Of a DNA stretch of 64,000 bases, positions 8,918-49,295 are shown one piece after another. The translations under genes were made by a program, and so were the position numbers. Positions within the stretch are counted from its first letter, which is position 1. Each line of letters starts with the position of its first letter. Source of the stretch: Oryzomicrobium terrae (GTDB lineage Bacteria > Pseudomonadota > Gammaproteobacteria > Burkholderiales > Rhodocyclaceae); contig NZ_CP022579.1 in the NCBI RefSeq assembly GCF_008274805.1, positions 2,914,001 to 2,978,000 on the forward strand, read 5' to 3'. Under the pieces are notes generated by a model. The model made no database searches. It was not told where the DNA came from and saw nothing but the letters and a program-made list of their open reading frames with translations.

Positions 8918-9631
8918 ATGTCGTCTGTTCTGCGCACCACCGCACTGGCCGCGGCCCTGGCCATCCTCGGCGCCGGCTGCGCCAGCAAGACGGCCAAGCC
9001 CGACGAAGCCACCAAGCCGGCCCAGGAAGCCGCGCCTGCCGCGGCCGCCGCCCCGACCCTGCCACCCTGCCCCGCCCCGGCCAAGGTGACCGACAAGAAG
9101 GGCAAGACCACCGGCAAATCCAGCAAGACCAAGGCCGCCCCGGCACCGGCCCCCACCGACTGCACGCCGGCCGACGGCAGCGCCCCCGCTGCCAAGACGG
9201 CTCCTGCCCCGGCGGCCGAACCTGCCCCGGCGCCCGCCGCCGGCAAGGACGGCCCGGGCATGAAGAACGGCCTGGTGGTGGACTCGTCCAAGGTTGAGTC
9301 CGGCTACGGTCAGAAGGTCAAGGGTATTAACGACTGGGAAGGCGAGATCACCGGCCGCCCCGCCGCCGGCAGCAAGTTCACCCAGCTGAAGATCGGTATG
9401 TCGATGTCCCAGGTCACCTATCAGATCGGCCAACCCACCGACCAGGGCGCCTACATCACCGGCAAGGCCTGGATCCCCTTCTACTTCGGCAGCGACCGGC
9501 ACCGCTACGAACTGGTCTACAAGGGCCAGGGCCGGCTGATCTTTGCCGGCGGCGCCGGCTTCACCGGTGACTGGGGCTCCGGCCACCTGATCTGGATCAT
9601 CCACAACAGCGGCGAAGGCTGCTGTCGTTAA
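8918..9631 (+). CDS. Lipoprotein with Ala/Pro-rich linker and BamE/SmpA-like domain
   Basis: 237 residues. A signal peptide ends in the lipobox LGAGC, with lipidation expected near Cys21. Residues ~25-115 form a low-complexity linker rich in Ala, Pro, Lys and Thr. The C-terminal ~100 residues include FTQLKIGMSMSQVTYQIGQPT, the pattern of the SmpA/OmlA (BamE-like) fold found in small outer-membrane lipoproteins. A strong AGGAGG precedes the ATG. It sits between epd and pgk and is closed by its own terminator, so the link to carbon metabolism is only positional. Specific function unknown. Confidence 0.8.
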   Translation: MSSVLRTTALAAALAILGAGCASKTAKPDEATKPAQEAAPAAAAAPTLPPCPAPAKVTDKKGKTTGKSSKTKAAPAPAPTDCTPADGSAPAAKTAPAPAAEPAPAPAAGKDGPGMKNGLVVDSSKVESGYGQKVKGINDWEGEITGRPAAGSKFTQLKIGMSMSQVTYQIGQPTDQGAYITGKAWIPFYFGSDRHRYELVYKGQGRLIFAGGAGFTGDWGSGHLIWIIHNSGEGCCR

Positions 9632-43301: not shown

Positions 43302-43335
43302 CGGCGCGCTTTTTCCGCCTTTCGACCCCTCCCCC

Positions 43336-44601
43336 ATGCGGCTTTATACCCTCGGCATCAACCACCACACCGCCCCCGTCTCGGTGCGCGAACAGGTGGC
43401 GTTCGGCGCCGACAAGCTGCCCCAGGCCCTGGCCAGCCTGGCGGGAGGTCCGGCCCGGGAAGCGGCGATCCTGTCCACCTGCAACCGCACCGAGGTGTAT
43501 TGCGCGGCGGAAACCCCGGAAGATGCCGCCCGCTGGCTGGCCGACTTCCACCGCCTGCCGATCGACCGCATCACCCCCTACCTGTACACCCTGCCCGAGC
43601 GGGAAGCGGTGCGCCATGCCTTCCGCGTCGCCTCCGGGCTCGACTCGATGGTCATCGGCGAACCCCAGATCCTCGGTCAAATGAAGGACGCGGTGCGTGC
43701 CGCCGAAGAGGCCGGCACCCTGGGCACCCTGCTCAACAAGCTGTTCCAGCGTTCCTTCGCGGTGGCCAAGGAGGTGCGCACCACCACCGCCATCGGCGCC
43801 AACATCGTTTCCATGGCCGCCGCCGCGGTGCACCTGGCCGGACGCATCTTCGACTCCATCTCCAACCAGCGCATCCTGTTCATCGGCGCCGGCGAGATGA
43901 TCGAGTTGACCGCCACCCACTTCGCCGCCCAGGCCCCCAAGGCCATCACTATCGCCAACCGCACCGTGGAGCGGGGCGAGGCCCTGGCCGCCCGCTTCGA
44001 CGGCAGGGCGATCCGCCTCGAAGACCTGGCCGACGCCCTCCCCCAGCACGACATCATCGTCTCGTGCACCGCCGCGCCCCTGCCGATCATCGGCCTGGGC
44101 CTGGCCGAGCGGGCGATCAAGGCGCGCCGCCACAAGCCCATGTTCATGGTGGATTTGGCCGTGCCCCGGGACATCGAGCCCGAAGTCGGCGAACTCGACG
44201 ACGTCTTCCTCTACACCGTGGACGACCTGTCCCAGGTGGTGGCCTCCGGCATGGAAGCCCGCCAGGCCGCCGTGGTGGAGGCCGAGGCGATCATCGACGC
44301 CCGGGTCGAGCACTTCCTGCACTGGATCGAACAGCGCCATTCGGTGCCCACCATCCGCGCCCTGCGCGATTCCGCCGAGCGCATGCGCCGCCACGAGGTC
44401 GAGCACGCCATGAAGCTGCTGGCCAAGGGCGAAGCCCCGGAAAAGGTCCTGGAAGCCCTCTCCCAGCGCCTCACCAACAAATTCCTGCACGCCCCGACCC
44501 AGGCGCTCAACCAGGCAGCGGCATCCCCTTCCACCTCGGAAACGGGGCTGGACATTCATTCCGCTGTGACAAGGTTGTTCCACCTGCACCAACAAGACTG
44601 A
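43336..44601 (+). CDS. hemA: Glutamyl-tRNA reductase
   Basis: NADPH-dependent reduction of glutamyl-tRNA to glutamate-1-semialdehyde, the first step of C5 tetrapyrrole synthesis. It has 421 residues. The N-terminal [14 protein letters not shown], the catalytic Cys in [12 protein letters not shown], then [19 protein letters not shown], the NADPH motif [17 protein letters not shown], and [16 protein letters not shown]-terminal dimerisation domain ends in [13 protein letters not shown]. The ATG at 43336 fits the family start and the promoter. Supplies haem for the cytochromes implied elsewhere. Confidence 0.97.
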
Positions 44602-44869
44602 TAGTCTTGTCATAAGAGGAGAGCATATCTCCCGACAATGCAGGGGGGTCGCCGGCAAACGTTCGGCGTGGCGGCATTGCGTCCGCACGACACAGCATTA
44701 CCTCCCTGCCCCAGAACAAGAAAAATCAGGGAGGTTGCGCACAGGCCACCGCGTCATGCCGGGGCCGCCATCAGTCATCCCAATACTGCTGCTCATGATC
44801 GGGCTTCAAGCCCGAAGGACGCCCACGCCTGCCGTGGCGCGTAGTCGCAACTCGCTCACGTTCCTTCTC

Positions 44870-45847
44870 ATGACAAAAAAATCAACGCAAACGCTGTCAA
44901 CCCTAGTCGCCGTCTCCGGAACCCTGCTCCTCGGAGGCTGTGCTACCCGCAACGATGTACCGCAGGTCGTCGAACAAGCCGCGCCACGCGTCCAGCAAGC
45001 CCAAGCGCAGCAACGCATGGAGCAAACTGAAGCCAAGGGCTTCAAGCGCAAGGTAGCCCTAGGCCGTTTCTCCAACGAGACCCAATACGGCCGCACCTTC
45101 TTTACCGACAAGAACCTCGACCCCCTAGGCAAGCAGGCTGCCGACATCCTCGGCAGCCGCCTGGTGGCGTCAAATCGTTTCCTGGTACTGGAACGTCCGG
45201 ACATCAACCAACTCCGCTCCGAGCAGAAGCTCCAGGGGCTGGAGAGCATCGTCGGTGCTGACGCATTAATTCTCGGCTCGGTAACGGAATTCGGTCGCTC
45301 GACCCAGGGGAAGTCCGGCTTCCTAAGCTCGACCAAGATCCAGGTAGCCCGCGCCAAGGTGGAACTACGTCTGGTTGACGTACGTACCGGTCACGTCTTC
45401 TTCTCCGCCAGCGGCACCGGCGAGGCAAACACCGAATCTGGCCAGATCGCCGGCTACGGTAGTAAAGCCGATTACGACGGCACCCTCAACGATCGGGCCA
45501 TCGCCGCCGCCATCTCTGACGTGATCGGCGGACTGATGTCCAAGCTCGGCGAGCGCGAGTGGAAAACCGACATCCTCAAGACCGAAGGCAACACCGTGTA
45601 CATCTCGGGTGGCGCACGGCAAGGGATTCGTCCCGGCGAAACCCTGCAGGTTTTCCAGGCGGGCGAGAAGGTCAAGAGTGGCCAGAGTGGCTTTGAGGTA
45701 GCCCTGCCCCCCAAGCCCATCGCGCAAATCAAGGTTGCGGCCAACTTCGGCGACAGCGAGACCAACGAAGGTTCGGTCTGTGACGTAGTCCAGGGCAAGC
45801 TGCCCGCCAACACCGCCAATCTGTTCGTGGGAGAACTCAAGAAATGA
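44870..45847 (+). CDS. CsgG/HfaB-family outer-membrane lipoprotein
   Basis: 325 residues from the ATG at 44870. Lipoprotein signal with LLLGGCATRNDVPQ (Cys ~23). The CsgG domain runs from about 65 to 245: KVALGRFSNETQYGRTFF, ILGSRLVASNRFLVLERPDI, and VGADALILGSVTEFGRSTQG. Relatives form oligomeric outer-membrane secretion channels (CsgG) or adhesin anchors (HfaB). The C-terminal ~80 residues form a further domain (VYISGGARQGIRPGETLQVF). It is the first gene of a four-lipoprotein operon; the next start overlaps by ATGA. The 268-bp gap upstream holds a hairpin TCGGGCTT-C-AAGCCCGA (about 44800-44816) and no gene. Confidence 0.88.
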   Translation: MTKKSTQTLSTLVAVSGTLLLGGCATRNDVPQVVEQAAPRVQQAQAQQRMEQTEAKGFKRKVALGRFSNETQYGRTFFTDKNLDPLGKQAADILGSRLVASNRFLVLERPDINQLRSEQKLQGLESIVGADALILGSVTEFGRSTQGKSGFLSSTKIQVARAKVELRLVDVRTGHVFFSASGTGEANTESGQIAGYGSKADYDGTLNDRAIAAAISDVIGGLMSKLGEREWKTDILKTEGNTVYISGGARQGIRPGETLQVFQAGEKVKSGQSGFEVALPPKPIAQIKVAANFGDSETNEGSVCDVVQGKLPANTANLFVGELKK

Positions 45848-46152
45848 AAGCCTTGATCGCTTGGGCGCTCGCCTTGAGCGTCGCCGCCTGCGCACTGCCG
45901 GCCTCGACCACCACCTCGGGATCGGTCCGGCCGACCCTGCAGGTAAAAGGTGCGCCGGAAGGCGCGACCCTGTTTGTCGACGGCGTTGCCGTGGGGGCTG
46001 CTGCCGACTTTGACGGCAGTTCGAAAGTACTTGCCTTGGAAGAAGGGGCGCACCGCATCGAAGTTCGTCAGGGAGCGACGGTGATCGTCAAACGCTCCGT
46101 CTTCGGCTCCGGAGGCGAGCGCATTTCCATCGACGCAGGAGCCAGCCAATGA
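45844..46152 (+). CDS. Small PEGA-like lipoprotein
   Basis: 102 residues. Signal with lipobox VAAC (Cys ~17). The body is one PEGA-like beta domain: LQVKGAPEGATLFVDGVAVG, then LALEEGAHRIEVRQG and KRSVFGSGGERISID. PEGA domains are surface or periplasmic beta modules of unknown specific function. It overlaps the CsgG-like gene by 4 bp and the next gene by 4 bp, so it belongs to the operon. It may be an accessory subunit of the CsgG-like assembly (inference). Confidence 0.8.
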   Translation: MKALIAWALALSVAACALPASTTTSGSVRPTLQVKGAPEGATLFVDGVAVGAAADFDGSSKVLALEEGAHRIEVRQGATVIVKRSVFGSGGERISIDAGASQ

Positions 46153-46568
46153 CCCGCACCCTCTTGATTGTCACCGCGCTGGCCAGCGCCCTGCTCAGCG
46201 GCTGCGCCTCCCAAGGGGGACGCTACCACTGGGGCGACTACGAACAGTCGCTGTATTCCTACTACAAGGCCCCCACCGATCTGAATGGCTTCGCCCTCTC
46301 ACTGGAGGACTCGATCAAGCAGGGTGAAACCCTGGGTAAGCGCGTCGCGCCTGGCCTGTATGCCGAATTGGGCTACCTCCTGATGCTCCAGGGCAAAAAG
46401 GAGCAGGCAATCGTGCTGTTCGAGAAGGAACGCAGCCTGTGGCCCCAATCCACTCAACTGATGACCACCATGATCCGTCTGGCCTCCGAAGCCCCCAAGG
46501 GGGAACCGAGCCAGGCACTCGTTCCGGCGGCAACTGTAGCGGAGGCAGAAAACAATGCGAAAAAGTAG
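46149..46568 (+). CDS. DUF4810 lipoprotein
   Basis: 139 residues. Lipobox LLSGC (Cys ~19). The family block is RYHWGDYEQSLYSYYKAP, followed by a TPR-like helical part (APGLYAELGYLLMLQGKKEQ and AIVLFEKERSLWPQS). DUF4810 proteins usually occur directly between a CsgG-like and a DUF799 lipoprotein gene, exactly as here. The start overlaps the PEGA gene by 4 bp, and the end overlaps the next gene by 14 bp. Confidence 0.88.
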   Translation: MTRTLLIVTALASALLSGCASQGGRYHWGDYEQSLYSYYKAPTDLNGFALSLEDSIKQGETLGKRVAPGLYAELGYLLMLQGKKEQAIVLFEKERSLWPQSTQLMTTMIRLASEAPKGEPSQALVPAATVAEAENNAKK

Positions 46569-47217
46569 CCTGGTCCTGCTGGCCATCCTTGCCCTGGCGG
46601 TGGCAGCCTGTGCTCCGGTGCAGCGCAAATACGACTACAAAGAGTTCCGGGCCGCGGACCCCAAGTCGATCCTGATCGTACCGGCGATCAACAAGAGCGT
46701 AGACGTCGACGCGCCGGATTACTTCCTGTCGACCATCTCGCGGCCGATCGGTGAACGGGGCTACTACGTTTTCCCCGTGAATTTGACCAAACGTCTGATG
46801 GAAGATGATGGCCTGTCCGATGCAGACATGGTCCACGCCAACGACCCGGTGGTCCTGGGAAAAATGTTCGGTAGCGACGCCATCATGTATGTCTCGATCG
46901 AACGCTGGGACGCCCGTTACGCGGTGCTCTCCACCGTGGTCACGGTAGACCTGGCCTACACGCTGAAGAGCGCCAAAACAGGCCAAACGCTGTGGAAACA
47001 CCGGGAAATGCGGACCTTCGACTCCCAGGCAGGGAACTCTGGCGGCGGCATCGCCGGACTCATCGCCAAGGCCATCGTCGCCGCCATTGAAAAGGCCTCG
47101 CCCCGCTACATCCCCCTGGCCCAGCAGGCCAATGCCGGGGCGGTCGGACGTGCGGGGACGGGCCTGCCCGCAGGCCCGCAAGATCCGGCCTACAAGAGCG
47201 ACATCAGCCAGTTTTAG
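46555..47217 (+). CDS. DUF799 (GNA1162-like) lipoprotein
   Basis: 220 residues. Lipobox VAAC (Cys ~19). KSILIVPAINKSVDVDAPDYF, YVFPVNLTKRLMEDDGL and GKMFGSDAIMYVSIERWDARY are the family blocks; the meningococcal homologue GNA1162 has a fold similar to TolB/CsgG N-domains. The C-terminal ~30 residues are Gly/Ala-rich. Last gene of the operon; an intrinsic terminator follows. Together the four genes probably build an outer-membrane lipoprotein assembly whose cargo is unknown. Confidence 0.9.
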   Translation: MRKSSLVLLAILALAVAACAPVQRKYDYKEFRAADPKSILIVPAINKSVDVDAPDYFLSTISRPIGERGYYVFPVNLTKRLMEDDGLSDADMVHANDPVVLGKMFGSDAIMYVSIERWDARYAVLSTVVTVDLAYTLKSAKTGQTLWKHREMRTFDSQAGNSGGGIAGLIAKAIVAAIEKASPRYIPLAQQANAGAVGRAGTGLPAGPQDPAYKSDISQF

Positions 47218-47256
47218 CGCCCTCCGCACCAGCGTGCGGCCCGGCCGAAGCCACTC

Positions 47257-47287
47257 AAGCCTCCCGCTACCGCGGGAGGCTTTTTTA
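47257..47287 (+). terminator. Intrinsic terminator of the lipoprotein operon
   Basis: AAGCCTCCCGC / GCGGGAGGCTT with a four-base loop, then TTTT. It overlaps the stop codon of the convergent FmdB-like gene. Confidence 0.9.
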
Positions 47288-47518
47288 CTCCTTAGCTGCC
47301 ACTTTTGAACGGCTGTAATTACTGAAACACCCTTCCCGGGCCCCCTGGGCGGGGCCTTTCCGGACAAAGCCGGCGGTCTTGCCTGGCACAGCGGAAAGCA
47401 ATAAGCATCTGTCCAGGCGGACGCTGTCGCAAGCAGGACAGGGCGGCACCTGGCCGCCACGCATCAGTGCTTCGAAGGTCGTGGCGCAGTCCTGGCAACG
47501 GTAATCGTCAAGCGGCAT
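47285..47518 (-). CDS. FmdB-family zinc-ribbon protein
   Basis: 77 residues from the ATG at 47518. The N-terminal zinc ribbon has YRCQDCATTFEAL (first CxxC) and PPCPACDSVRLDR (second CxxC). The C-terminal part is short and basic. FmdB-type proteins are small putative regulators with unclear targets. The frame is open upstream but lacks similarity. GAGGAG lies 10 bases before the ATG. Confidence 0.85.
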   Translation of the reverse strand: MPLDDYRCQDCATTFEALMRGGQVPPCPACDSVRLDRCLLLSAVPGKTAGFVRKGPAQGAREGCFSNYSRSKVAAKE

Positions 47519-47708
47519 GATGGTGGTGCTCCTCGGGCAGAATCGTCGCAGCGGGCGGGAATGACCTGGCACGGCACCAGCCGCGCCGGATAAATTGCCG
47601 GCTTGACGACAACCCCCGCGACTCACGCCCCGCCTGCCACCACCTGGCAACAACGGCTCCGCATCGACCTCGCCTTCGTACCCACCACAATTCTTTCTGC
47701 CACCCGCC

Positions 47709-48089
47709 ATGCCCGACGACGACCTGACCTGGCTGCTCGACCGCCTCGCGCCCCTGGGACGCGTCAGCGCCCGGCGCATGTTCGGCAGCCGCGGGCTGTA
47801 TTGCGACGGGGTGTTCTTCGCCATCTACAGCGACGGCCAGCTCTATCTCAAGGCCGACGACGGCAACCGGGACGACTTCACCCGGCTCGGCCTCACCCCC
47901 CTGACTTTCCAGGCGCCTTCGGGGCGCGTTCAGGTGCTGCCCTACTACCCCCTGCCCGACGAGGCGGCGGATGACGACGGCGCGCTGTGGCGCTGGTGCC
48001 GCAGCGCCATTGCCGCCGGTCTGCGCAGAGGACGGCCAACACCGGGCCAACGCGGCCGGCATCGCACCGCCACGGCCGACCCTACGTAA
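47709..48089 (+). CDS. TfoX N-terminal domain protein
   Basis: 126 residues. It matches the TfoX/Sxy N-terminal domain: VSARRMFGSRGLYCDGVFFAIYSDG, described here only in outline, and QLYLKADDGNRDDF, then VQVLPYYPLPDEA and WCRSAIAA. The C-terminal ~20 residues are a basic tail. It lacks the TfoX C-terminal domain, so a direct competence role is doubtful. The 5' region of 190 bp to the FmdB gene shows no other feature. Confidence 0.82.
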   Translation: MPDDDLTWLLDRLAPLGRVSARRMFGSRGLYCDGVFFAIYSDGQLYLKADDGNRDDFTRLGLTPLTFQAPSGRVQVLPYYPLPDEAADDDGALWRWCRSAIAAGLRRGRPTPGQRGRHRTATADPT

Positions 48090-48122
48090 AGGCCCGCCGC
48101 CCCGCAGCGGCCGTCGGCAAAC

Positions 48123-48470
48123 TTAGAGGGAGCGCCCGTCAAAGTGGCTGACCGGTAGGGCGGCGATATCCACGTCCTCCAGGCAGCGCACGTTAATCGC
48201 CGCTGCCGCCCGTCCGCTCGGGTCCGTGCCCTCGCCGAAGGGATGGATGCCGCACACCGGGCAGAAGCGGTGGCGGATGCGCGCCTTGCCGAAGGTGTAG
48301 GTGGCCAGGTTCTCGTCCGGGGTGAGCAGGCGCAGCTTGTCCCGGGGCACGAACCAGAGCAGGGCGCCCTTGCGCGAGCAGATCGAACAGTTGCAATCGG
48401 CCACCTGGGTCAGGTCCCCCTCCACCTCGAAGGCGGTGCGGCCGCAATGACAGCTTCCCTTGTAGATCAT
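48123..48470 (-). CDS. GFA-family (glutathione-dependent formaldehyde-activating-like) protein
   Basis: 115 residues. Zinc ligands in GSCHCGRTAFEVEG (CxC), DCNCSICSRKGALLW (CxxC) and HRFCPVCGIHPFGEG (CxxC) are the GFA/CENP-V fold signature. Whether it binds glutathione adducts is unknown; most members are uncharacterised. The promoter side faces the CSD gene. The ATG at 48470 has GAGAGGAG upstream. Confidence 0.88.
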   Translation of the reverse strand: MIYKGSCHCGRTAFEVEGDLTQVADCNCSICSRKGALLWFVPRDKLRLLTPDENLATYTFGKARIRHRFCPVCGIHPFGEGTDPSGRAAAAINVRCLEDVDIAALPVSHFDGRSL

Positions 48471-48548
48471 GGTCCAGCTCCTCTCATGGCGTAATGAAGG
48501 ATTAGCGGACAGCGGACCATTCCGCCAGCCCGAACCGGCCCGAGGAGC

Positions 48549-49190
48549 TTAGCCGAGGAAGAGCCGCGGCCCCTGGACAATGGCAAAACCCAGTGCCGCG
48601 ACGTTGAGCACCACGGTCACCCAGAACTGGGCAAGAAAGGTGGTCTTGCGATGCTTGTGGCGGAACAAGGCCTGGGCGAGCAGAGCGCCGGGCCAGCCAC
48701 CGAGCAGTGCTAGCAGATGCAGGCGCGTCTCGGCGGTGCGCCAGCCCTGGCGTACCGCCGCACCCTTGTCGAGGCCGTAGGCGACGAAGGTTACCGCGCT
48801 CAACCCGGCCAGCACCGCGCCAGCCCAGCCTGGCAGCGCCCCACTGCGGACCAGCCCGTAGAGTACGGCCAGAGCCGCTACGCCCAGCACCAGACGTCCC
48901 CACAACGCCCCCTGGCCGCCACCGGGGCGAGGCGGGACGGACCGTGGCGAGGGCCGCGCCCGGGCAGGGTGCGGCGCCGCGGCGGCCCCGACATAGGCGA
49001 CCTCCTCGGCGCGGCGGCGCCCCTGGGCGTCCCGGACGAGGCGGTAGCGCACCCGGGCCCCCGGCCGGGGGGCGGGGTCGCGAACGGCGAAGGCCTTGAT
49101 GTGGGCAAACACCTCCTCGCCTCCTTCCTCCGGCGCGATGAAGCCGAAGCCCCGTTCCACCACCCAACGTTCGATCGTGCCCTGCGCCAT
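48549..49190 (-). CDS. Cold-shock domain fused to DUF1294 membrane domain
   Basis: 213 residues from the ATG at 49190. Residues 1-65 form a cold-shock domain ([20 protein letters not shown], then VFAHIKAF), which binds single-stranded nucleic acid. A Pro/Ala/Arg linker follows to about 100. The rest is DUF1294 with three to four membrane segments ([72 protein letters not shown]). The fusion is widespread in proteobacteria with no known role. Divergent from prfA. Confidence 0.9.
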
Positions 49191-49295
49191 GGGTATTCCT
49201 CGGTCATGATGATTTGCCCCGCATCGTACCCGAGCGCCCCCACAACGCTCTGCCAAGCTGGGAGGATTGGGGCGGAGCAAGTACACTTCGCCCCC

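Follow-up and report, generated by a model that had tools for sequence, protein, structure and literature searches.

A mobile class of four-lipoprotein operons represented in Oryzomicrobium terrae, and a possible FlgT-like ring at the outer membrane

A 64,000-nucleotide stretch of the Oryzomicrobium terrae genome (NZ_CP022579.1, positions 2,914,001 to 2,978,000; the window, hereafter) contains an operon of four overlapping lipoprotein genes, encoding a CsgG-like protein with an extra C-terminal domain, a small PEGA-like protein, a DUF4810 protein and a DUF799/GNA1162-like protein. The operon represents a four-lipoprotein class that is real, widespread and mobile. We tentatively suggest, at somewhat less than an even chance, that it is a horizontally mobile module building a periplasmic ring or collar on the outer membrane. 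Window positions are as follows.

44870–45847, plus strand: CsgG-like lipoprotein gene with an extra C-terminal domain (open reading frame, 325 residues; putative CsgG/TolB-N-like domain at about 56–231 and FlgT-C-like beta domain at about 231–325)
45844–46152, plus strand: PEGA-like small lipoprotein gene (102 residues; beta-sandwich model; lipobox Cys16)
46149–46568, plus strand: DUF4810 lipoprotein gene (139 residues; weak TPR similarity)
46555–47217, plus strand: DUF799/GNA1162-like lipoprotein gene (220 residues)
47257–47282, plus strand: intrinsic terminator (11-pair stem, then a T tract)
44523–47311, no strand: segment missing from the same-genus genome G438, containing the four genes and the terminator (approximate BLASTN edges)

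The initial annotation of this DNA described four lipoprotein genes overlapping by 4–14 bp and ending in one terminator. Both the reading frames (successive overlaps of 4, 4 and 14 bp) and the 11-pair stem are confirmed, and a lipobox cysteine can be seen by eye in all four window proteins. The stem is convincing because of its length and not because of the scan count, which gave 4 terminator-type sites against 3.1 expected. A scan for sigma-70 promoters found none.

A four-gene class with a fixed PEGA-like member

DUF4810 was searched in 398 genomes of the phylum (40 matches, 39 over the cut-off) and 150 genomes of the family (26 matches). Using profiles of the four proteins we classified 64 loci, counting the O. 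terrae genome once and removing a chance match in G360 (E 6.3e-4, below the cut-off, no operon). In 48 of these 64, the CsgG-like protein ends near profile position 228 and no PEGA-like gene is present, which bears out the earlier description of the CsgG-like, DUF4810 and DUF799 genes as a recurrent, uncharacterised trio. The other 16, the window's included, encode about 95 further C-terminal residues in the CsgG-like protein, with a PEGA-like gene next. Mixed loci were not found (0/64), the extra domain and the PEGA-like gene always occurring together.

Relatives of the long CsgG-like protein were collected by an alignment scan of one genome per species (84,980 species), and the best 80 of 513 were taken (the 80 loci, hereafter). 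They come from Burkholderiales, Rhodospirillales, Anaeromyxobacter, Shewanella, Kiritimatiellota and others, several being metagenome bins with possibly wrong taxon labels. The PEGA-like gene adjoins the long CsgG-like gene in 77 of the 80. Two exceptions (L128 and L147) lie on contigs that stop about 170 bases past the CsgG-like gene. In the third, L165, transposase-like DNA (IS3-like by eye) directly follows that gene from about position 9000, and PEGA, DUF4810 and DUF799 genes were not found within the available stretch. Except at contig ends, DUF4810 and DUF799 come after PEGA, with intergenic gaps of mostly -4 to +15 bases. As the same genes recur in the same order in dozens of genomes, the arrangement is not due to chance. 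The PEGA-like gene is a constant part of a widespread class of four genes; the initial annotation, which had it inserted locally as a fourth member, has to be revised on this point.

Some loci call for separate mention. L107 and L108 contain an identical operon, with the same coordinates and scores, in bins labelled Pseudomonadaceae and Alphaproteobacteria, making these labels doubtful. The CsgG-like frame is broken in L074 (7032–7993, genome G267) and L148 (7986–8938, Burkholderia sp. OK233), the other three genes still being found by profiles. The CsgG protein set comprises 78 of the 80 loci, leaving out L148 and L140 (unplaced), and the CsgG alignment A1 omits L074 and L087 (contig edge). 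Alignments A5 and A6 hold 56 of 78 and 61 of 77 locus proteins, respectively, each together with the window's.

Pfam profiles place three of the window proteins in their domain families: the CsgG-like protein in PF03783 (100.7 bits, cut-off 20.8), the DUF4810 protein in PF16068 (85.3 bits, cut-off 34.7) and the GNA1162-like protein in PF05643 (143.5 bits, cut-off 25.9). A profile search of the O. terrae genome finds one gene of each over the cut-off. The GNA1162-like protein also matches 4hrv by phmmer (E 2.7e-26), and the DUF4810 protein shows a TPR_1 similarity below the cut-off (E 0.0018). For the small lipoprotein, PEGA PF08308 is sub-threshold (15.9 bits, cut-off 20.8), with PEGA matches at E<=0.01 in 9 of the 62 members of its family (best 1.3e-6). 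Across the four families, 294 of 302 proteins contain the lipobox pattern; the Asp+2 inner-membrane sorting signal, a rule derived from E. coli, is present in one.

A profile of the 62 PEGA-like proteins was matched 27 times at E<=0.01 among 299 phylum genomes, in 26 of them; 10 of the matches lie within four-gene operons. The initial annotation had named a PEGA gene found without the others as a result that would count against its proposal of an envelope system. That is not the pattern for nine of the ten matches with E<1e-4, which lie in operons; it does describe the tenth, G257 (E 2.8e-5), a lipoprotein whose PEGA domain is generic and whose 3-kb contig lacks the other operon genes. Stray members of the PEGA family may be among the 16 weaker matches outside operons.

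Acquisition and genomic context of the operon

The window operon is compositionally foreign. Its guanine plus cytosine (GC) content is 0.616, compared to 0.673 for the window, 0.681 for hemA and 0.695 for the downstream genes, in line with the lower GC noted initially. At third codon positions, GC is 0.72–0.79 in the four operon genes, 0.90 in hemA and 0.94 in prfA. The same-genus genome G438 has no DUF4810 gene; downstream of its hemA, whose protein is 96% identical, lie the same small genes and then prfA. BLASTN matches G438 to window positions 43332–44522 and 47312–47523, the sister match stopping at 2050 and restarting at 2191, so that 2789 bases between the matching flanks correspond to 140 in G438. 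We saw neither an integrase nor a transposase in segment 44523–47311.

The window CsgG-like protein shares 67% identity with its Cupriavidus necator counterpart and only 46–47% with those from four-gene loci of its own family (L084–L086, L088). A CsgG-domain tree was built from 63 rows, for which the short (46) and long (76) sequences were thinned to about one in two and joined by the window protein and E. coli CsgG. The window protein clusters with Cupriavidus (83/79), the two falling within a Burkholderiaceae group (96/93), and short and long CsgG domains separate on one branch (99/98), all in a tree in which the E. coli CsgG branch is very long and the bootstrap had not settled. Composition and tree together make an insertion of about 2.65 kb after hemA more likely than loss of the operon from G438.

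In the window (44602–49295), hemA and prfA are kept apart by the operon and by small genes also present in G438; the two are adjacent in five of the six other family genomes opened (of 17), and G400 has a larger gap. A minus-strand open reading frame (47285–47824) lies directly past the terminator. It is partly conserved in G438 (42% identity), and its product resembles, by eye, a small zinc-ribbon (FmdB-like) protein.

The operon is also found on plasmids pPNAP04 of Polaromonas and pLA5 of Novosphingobium, and a large Prevotella replicon carries all four genes. On pPNAP04 (L170, 11820–18226) TerD, VWA, phosphatase and kinase genes come after the operon, and on pLA5 (L171) its neighbours are glycosyltransferase, kds and capsule genes. 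Clustering of neighbouring open reading frames of at least 100 residues by blastp revealed no recurrent family beyond the four genes in the 80 loci, flanks being short where contigs end. Clusters spanning 17 and 12 loci consist of antisense frames over the operon itself. Next come clusters of 7, 7, 5 and 5 loci that vary in orientation and by eye resemble a response regulator, two LysR groups and an ABC ATPase. We therefore find no linked cargo, as had been claimed for the window alone. Neither curli-like (csgA/B/E/F) nor flagellar neighbours recur among the 80 loci, where families other than the four genes and the antisense frames reach at most 7 of 80 and curli genes were judged by eye.

Patchy spread (DUF4810 in 26 of the 150 family genomes), plasmid copies and changing contexts would also suit a mobile, accessory trait that protects from outside threats, for instance by surface masking or the exclusion of phages or toxins, and that is selected on acquisition and lost when unneeded. 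We consider this improbable: none of the four proteins has a PADLOC match at E<=0.01, PHROG matches are to families of unknown function only, and viral_contigs contain no relatives of alignment A5. A known defence system and a phage origin were accordingly rejected. The only phage records matched, two Acinetobacter 'phage' contigs, look like host DNA; in one of them (L172, CAKLQH020000025.1, 'Acinetobacter phage MD-2021a'), paaJ, aroP and puuP surround a three-gene lipoprotein operon. Phage families that include L172 may mislead because this contig carries chromosomal metabolic genes.

Predicted structures and the question of a pore

The CsgG-like protein, modelled from 57 sequences, gave a predicted local distance difference test score (pLDDT) of 85.9 and a predicted template modelling score (pTM) of 0.76. 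The top Foldseek matches in the PDB were 8z5n_0 from the LPHT ring (E 1.8e-14) and 3w1e (E 6.2e-14); from its agreement with 3w1e, we infer that the 8z5n_0 chain is FlgT. CsgG came next, from 4.4e-9, with GNA1162, PelC and LpoB later. VIA returned FlgT matches at Z 16.5 (4.2 Å, 241 aligned) and Z 13.8 (6.4 Å, 238 aligned), CsgG at Z 13.3 (3.0 Å, 164 aligned, residues 52–231) and PelC at Z 12.0 (2.9 Å, 119 aligned). Residues 230–325 alone resemble the N-terminal domain of V1-ATPase subunits (Z up to 9.7, 2.7 Å, 72 aligned). In the model the N-terminal domain appears at least as CsgG-like as FlgT-like, and FlgT is the best match because this domain is combined with the C-terminal one. As modelled, the long CsgG-like protein thus has two domains and lies closer to FlgT than to CsgG. 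A single-sequence phmmer search of the PDB with the CsgG-like protein gave no match, while its profile reached CsgG at E 2e-6.

Such folds raise the possibility of an LpoB/TolB-like regulator of peptidoglycan synthesis, or an outer-membrane tether, with lipoproteins that reach cell-wall enzymes and form no ring. The LpoB C-terminal domain (4q6l) is matched at a Foldseek E of 8.7e-5, TolB at Z of about 10 (3.4 Å, 110 aligned), and LpoB PF13036 scores 13.1 bits, below its cut-off of 22.3, leaving the protein outside that family. However, the FlgT and CsgG matches are better and longer, the GNA1162 member obtains 12.2 bits on the NCBIfam LpoB model against a cut-off of 110.55, and no cell-wall gene recurs nearby, which makes this role quite unlikely.

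The main rival to a collar is a CsgG-like outer-membrane secretion channel with a barrel pore, in which the other lipoproteins would be cofactors in the periplasm or at the surface and a cargo would be encoded elsewhere. It draws on the PF03783 score and on the superposition of the domain on CsgG. In addition, one long beta-hairpin (132–149/153–170) is present in the monomer model, and the second hairpin region is as long as that of CsgG (39 residues versus 38). We compared pore features in an alignment of E. coli CsgG, the sole and distant reference, with the 46 short and 76 long sequences. At the positions of Y51, N55 and F56, which we take to be the constriction residues of E. coli CsgG, the window protein has F77, K81 and N82. 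Among the 76 long members the Y51 position is F or L (one I), the N55 position is variable with Ala commonest (22/76), and the F56 position is variable with D, N or S commonest; the Y/N/F set is kept in neither the long nor the short members. The first hairpin region spans 25 residues, compared to 31 in CsgG, strong hydrophobics make up 0.22 of the hairpin regions compared to 0.35 and 0.42 in CsgG, and the best alternating windows reach 0.41 and 0.48 compared to 0.6 and 0.8. Residues 194–205 are scarcely strand in the monomer model.

The lack of conserved constriction residues, together with hairpins that are less hydrophobic and less alternating, the first also being shorter, speaks against a CsgG-type pore, as far as one reference from E. 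coli, distantly aligned, can indicate. The window protein also falls far below the NCBIfam curli-channel equivalog PRK15184 (15.6 bits, cut-off 505), outside that group, and the curli-type partners of a channel do not recur. We therefore regard a secretion channel as unlikely. The initial annotation had taken the CsgG-like member to suggest a channel or anchor, and had also named missing pore residues as telling against its proposal. These are indeed missing on the available alignment, and with FlgT as the best match the channel reading is weakened.

A putative collar and its relation to known systems

Under the collar model, the four co-translated lipoproteins would assemble, on the outer membrane's periplasmic face, into a ring or collar of several storeys. 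The CsgG-like protein would oligomerise via its CsgG/TolB-N/PelC-type domain, and the extra FlgT-C-like domain would make a second tier. The PEGA-like lipoprotein, whose gene goes with the extra domain in every testable locus, may dock on or cap this tier. GNA1162, with the same general fold, and the TPR-like DUF4810 protein would be parts in common with the three-gene form. Such a collar could act like the PelC ring or the flagellar H-ring, as a support or adaptor for outer-membrane structures in the absence of flagellar genes. A more specific version, a flagellum-independent H-ring-like collar with a FlgT-like lipoprotein ring and a PEGA cap, spread across several phyla as a stand-alone cassette that organises outer-membrane structures without its own cargo, seems to us rather unlikely; if true, H-ring-like collars exist apart from flagella.

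Several observations weigh against the collar. FlgT_C scores 18.1 bits in the CsgG-like protein (E 0.0036), below the cut-off of 27, and neither FlgT_N nor FlgT_M is listed at E<=1; a FlgT_C search of the O. terrae genome gave only the CsgG-like protein and one chance-level match, neither over the cut-off. The fold is shared by non-ring proteins, with TolB, LptE and HpaA among the VIA matches. The PEGA-like protein is modelled with confidence as a small beta-sandwich (pLDDT 87.4), for which only generic beta-sandwich matches were obtained (best Z 7.8, 2.7 Å, 72 aligned), the best Foldseek match (E 1.4e-3) pointing to no specific relative. Mirror-tree analysis of 68 operons with all four proteins gave no special signal between PEGA and the CsgG C-terminal domain (partial r 0.147, versus 0.218, 0.178 and 0.247 for PEGA with the other parts). 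The association of this domain with the PEGA gene also corresponds to one branch of the CsgG-domain tree, and therefore to one event kept without exception and not to many. Finally, meningococcal GNA1162 is described as surface-exposed by fluorescence-activated cell sorting, and one scheme labels the CsgG homologue PP and GNA1162 OM (passages of PMC6497663 and PMC6338130). Hence not all of the published data fit a periplasm-facing collar.

In excerpts of the Neisseria literature, vesicle or vaccine antigens include GNA1162 and the CsgG homologue (PMC6338130, PMC6497663, PMC11306574), and members of the trio belong to a scheme for typing the antigens of outer-membrane-vesicle vaccines (PMC6338130). 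In the passages available, the function of GNA1162 is listed as unknown (PMC6497663), and a citing paper credits its similarity to TolB and LptE to Cai 2013. DUF799 and CsgG genes share one region of a meningococcal recombination table (part of PMC5282872), and a table of the biofilm transcriptome of Haemophilus parasuis lists homologues under the names NMB1162 and NMB1164, the direction of change not being checked (part of PMC4245831). Neither a mention of DUF4810 nor a description of the four-gene class was found in the literature searched.

The curli channel CsgG shares the PF03783 domain, its fold and lipoprotein character with the window protein, which differs in its extra C-terminal domain, its unconserved constriction residues and the absence of curli genes nearby. 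PelC, which according to an excerpt of PMC12141448 forms a periplasmic ring of 12 lipoproteins on PelB, is likewise a lipoprotein with the N-terminal domain fold. In contrast to the window protein it has a single domain, and no PelB-like neighbour recurs in the 80 loci, a genome-wide barrel search not having been made.

FlgT is the best whole-chain structural match, with two domains in the same order, and the predicted model reproduces the fold of its middle and C-terminal domains. According to a passage of PMC7990780, the H-ring comprises FlgT together with FlgO and FlgP, both lipoproteins of the outer membrane. FlgT itself is described as a periplasmic protein, whereas the window protein is a lipoprotein; the Pfam results for the FlgT domains and the lack of recurrent flagellar neighbours also set the two apart.

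Also among the closest known systems is the CsgG-DUF4810-GNA1162/DUF799 trio of Neisseria (NMB1124-1126 / NMB1162-1164), which consists of three homologous lipoprotein genes in the same order. Unlike in the window operon, the PEGA gene is absent and the CsgG-like protein is short, ending near profile position 228. Among the lipoproteins of the three-gene form are some that have been studied as vaccine antigens of meningococci and gonococci. The four-gene form, with environmental hosts such as Cupriavidus, Paraburkholderia and Massilia, is a second class recognised by a diagnostic extra domain and its partner, and offers a structural hypothesis in which a FlgT-like ring may take the place of a curli pore.

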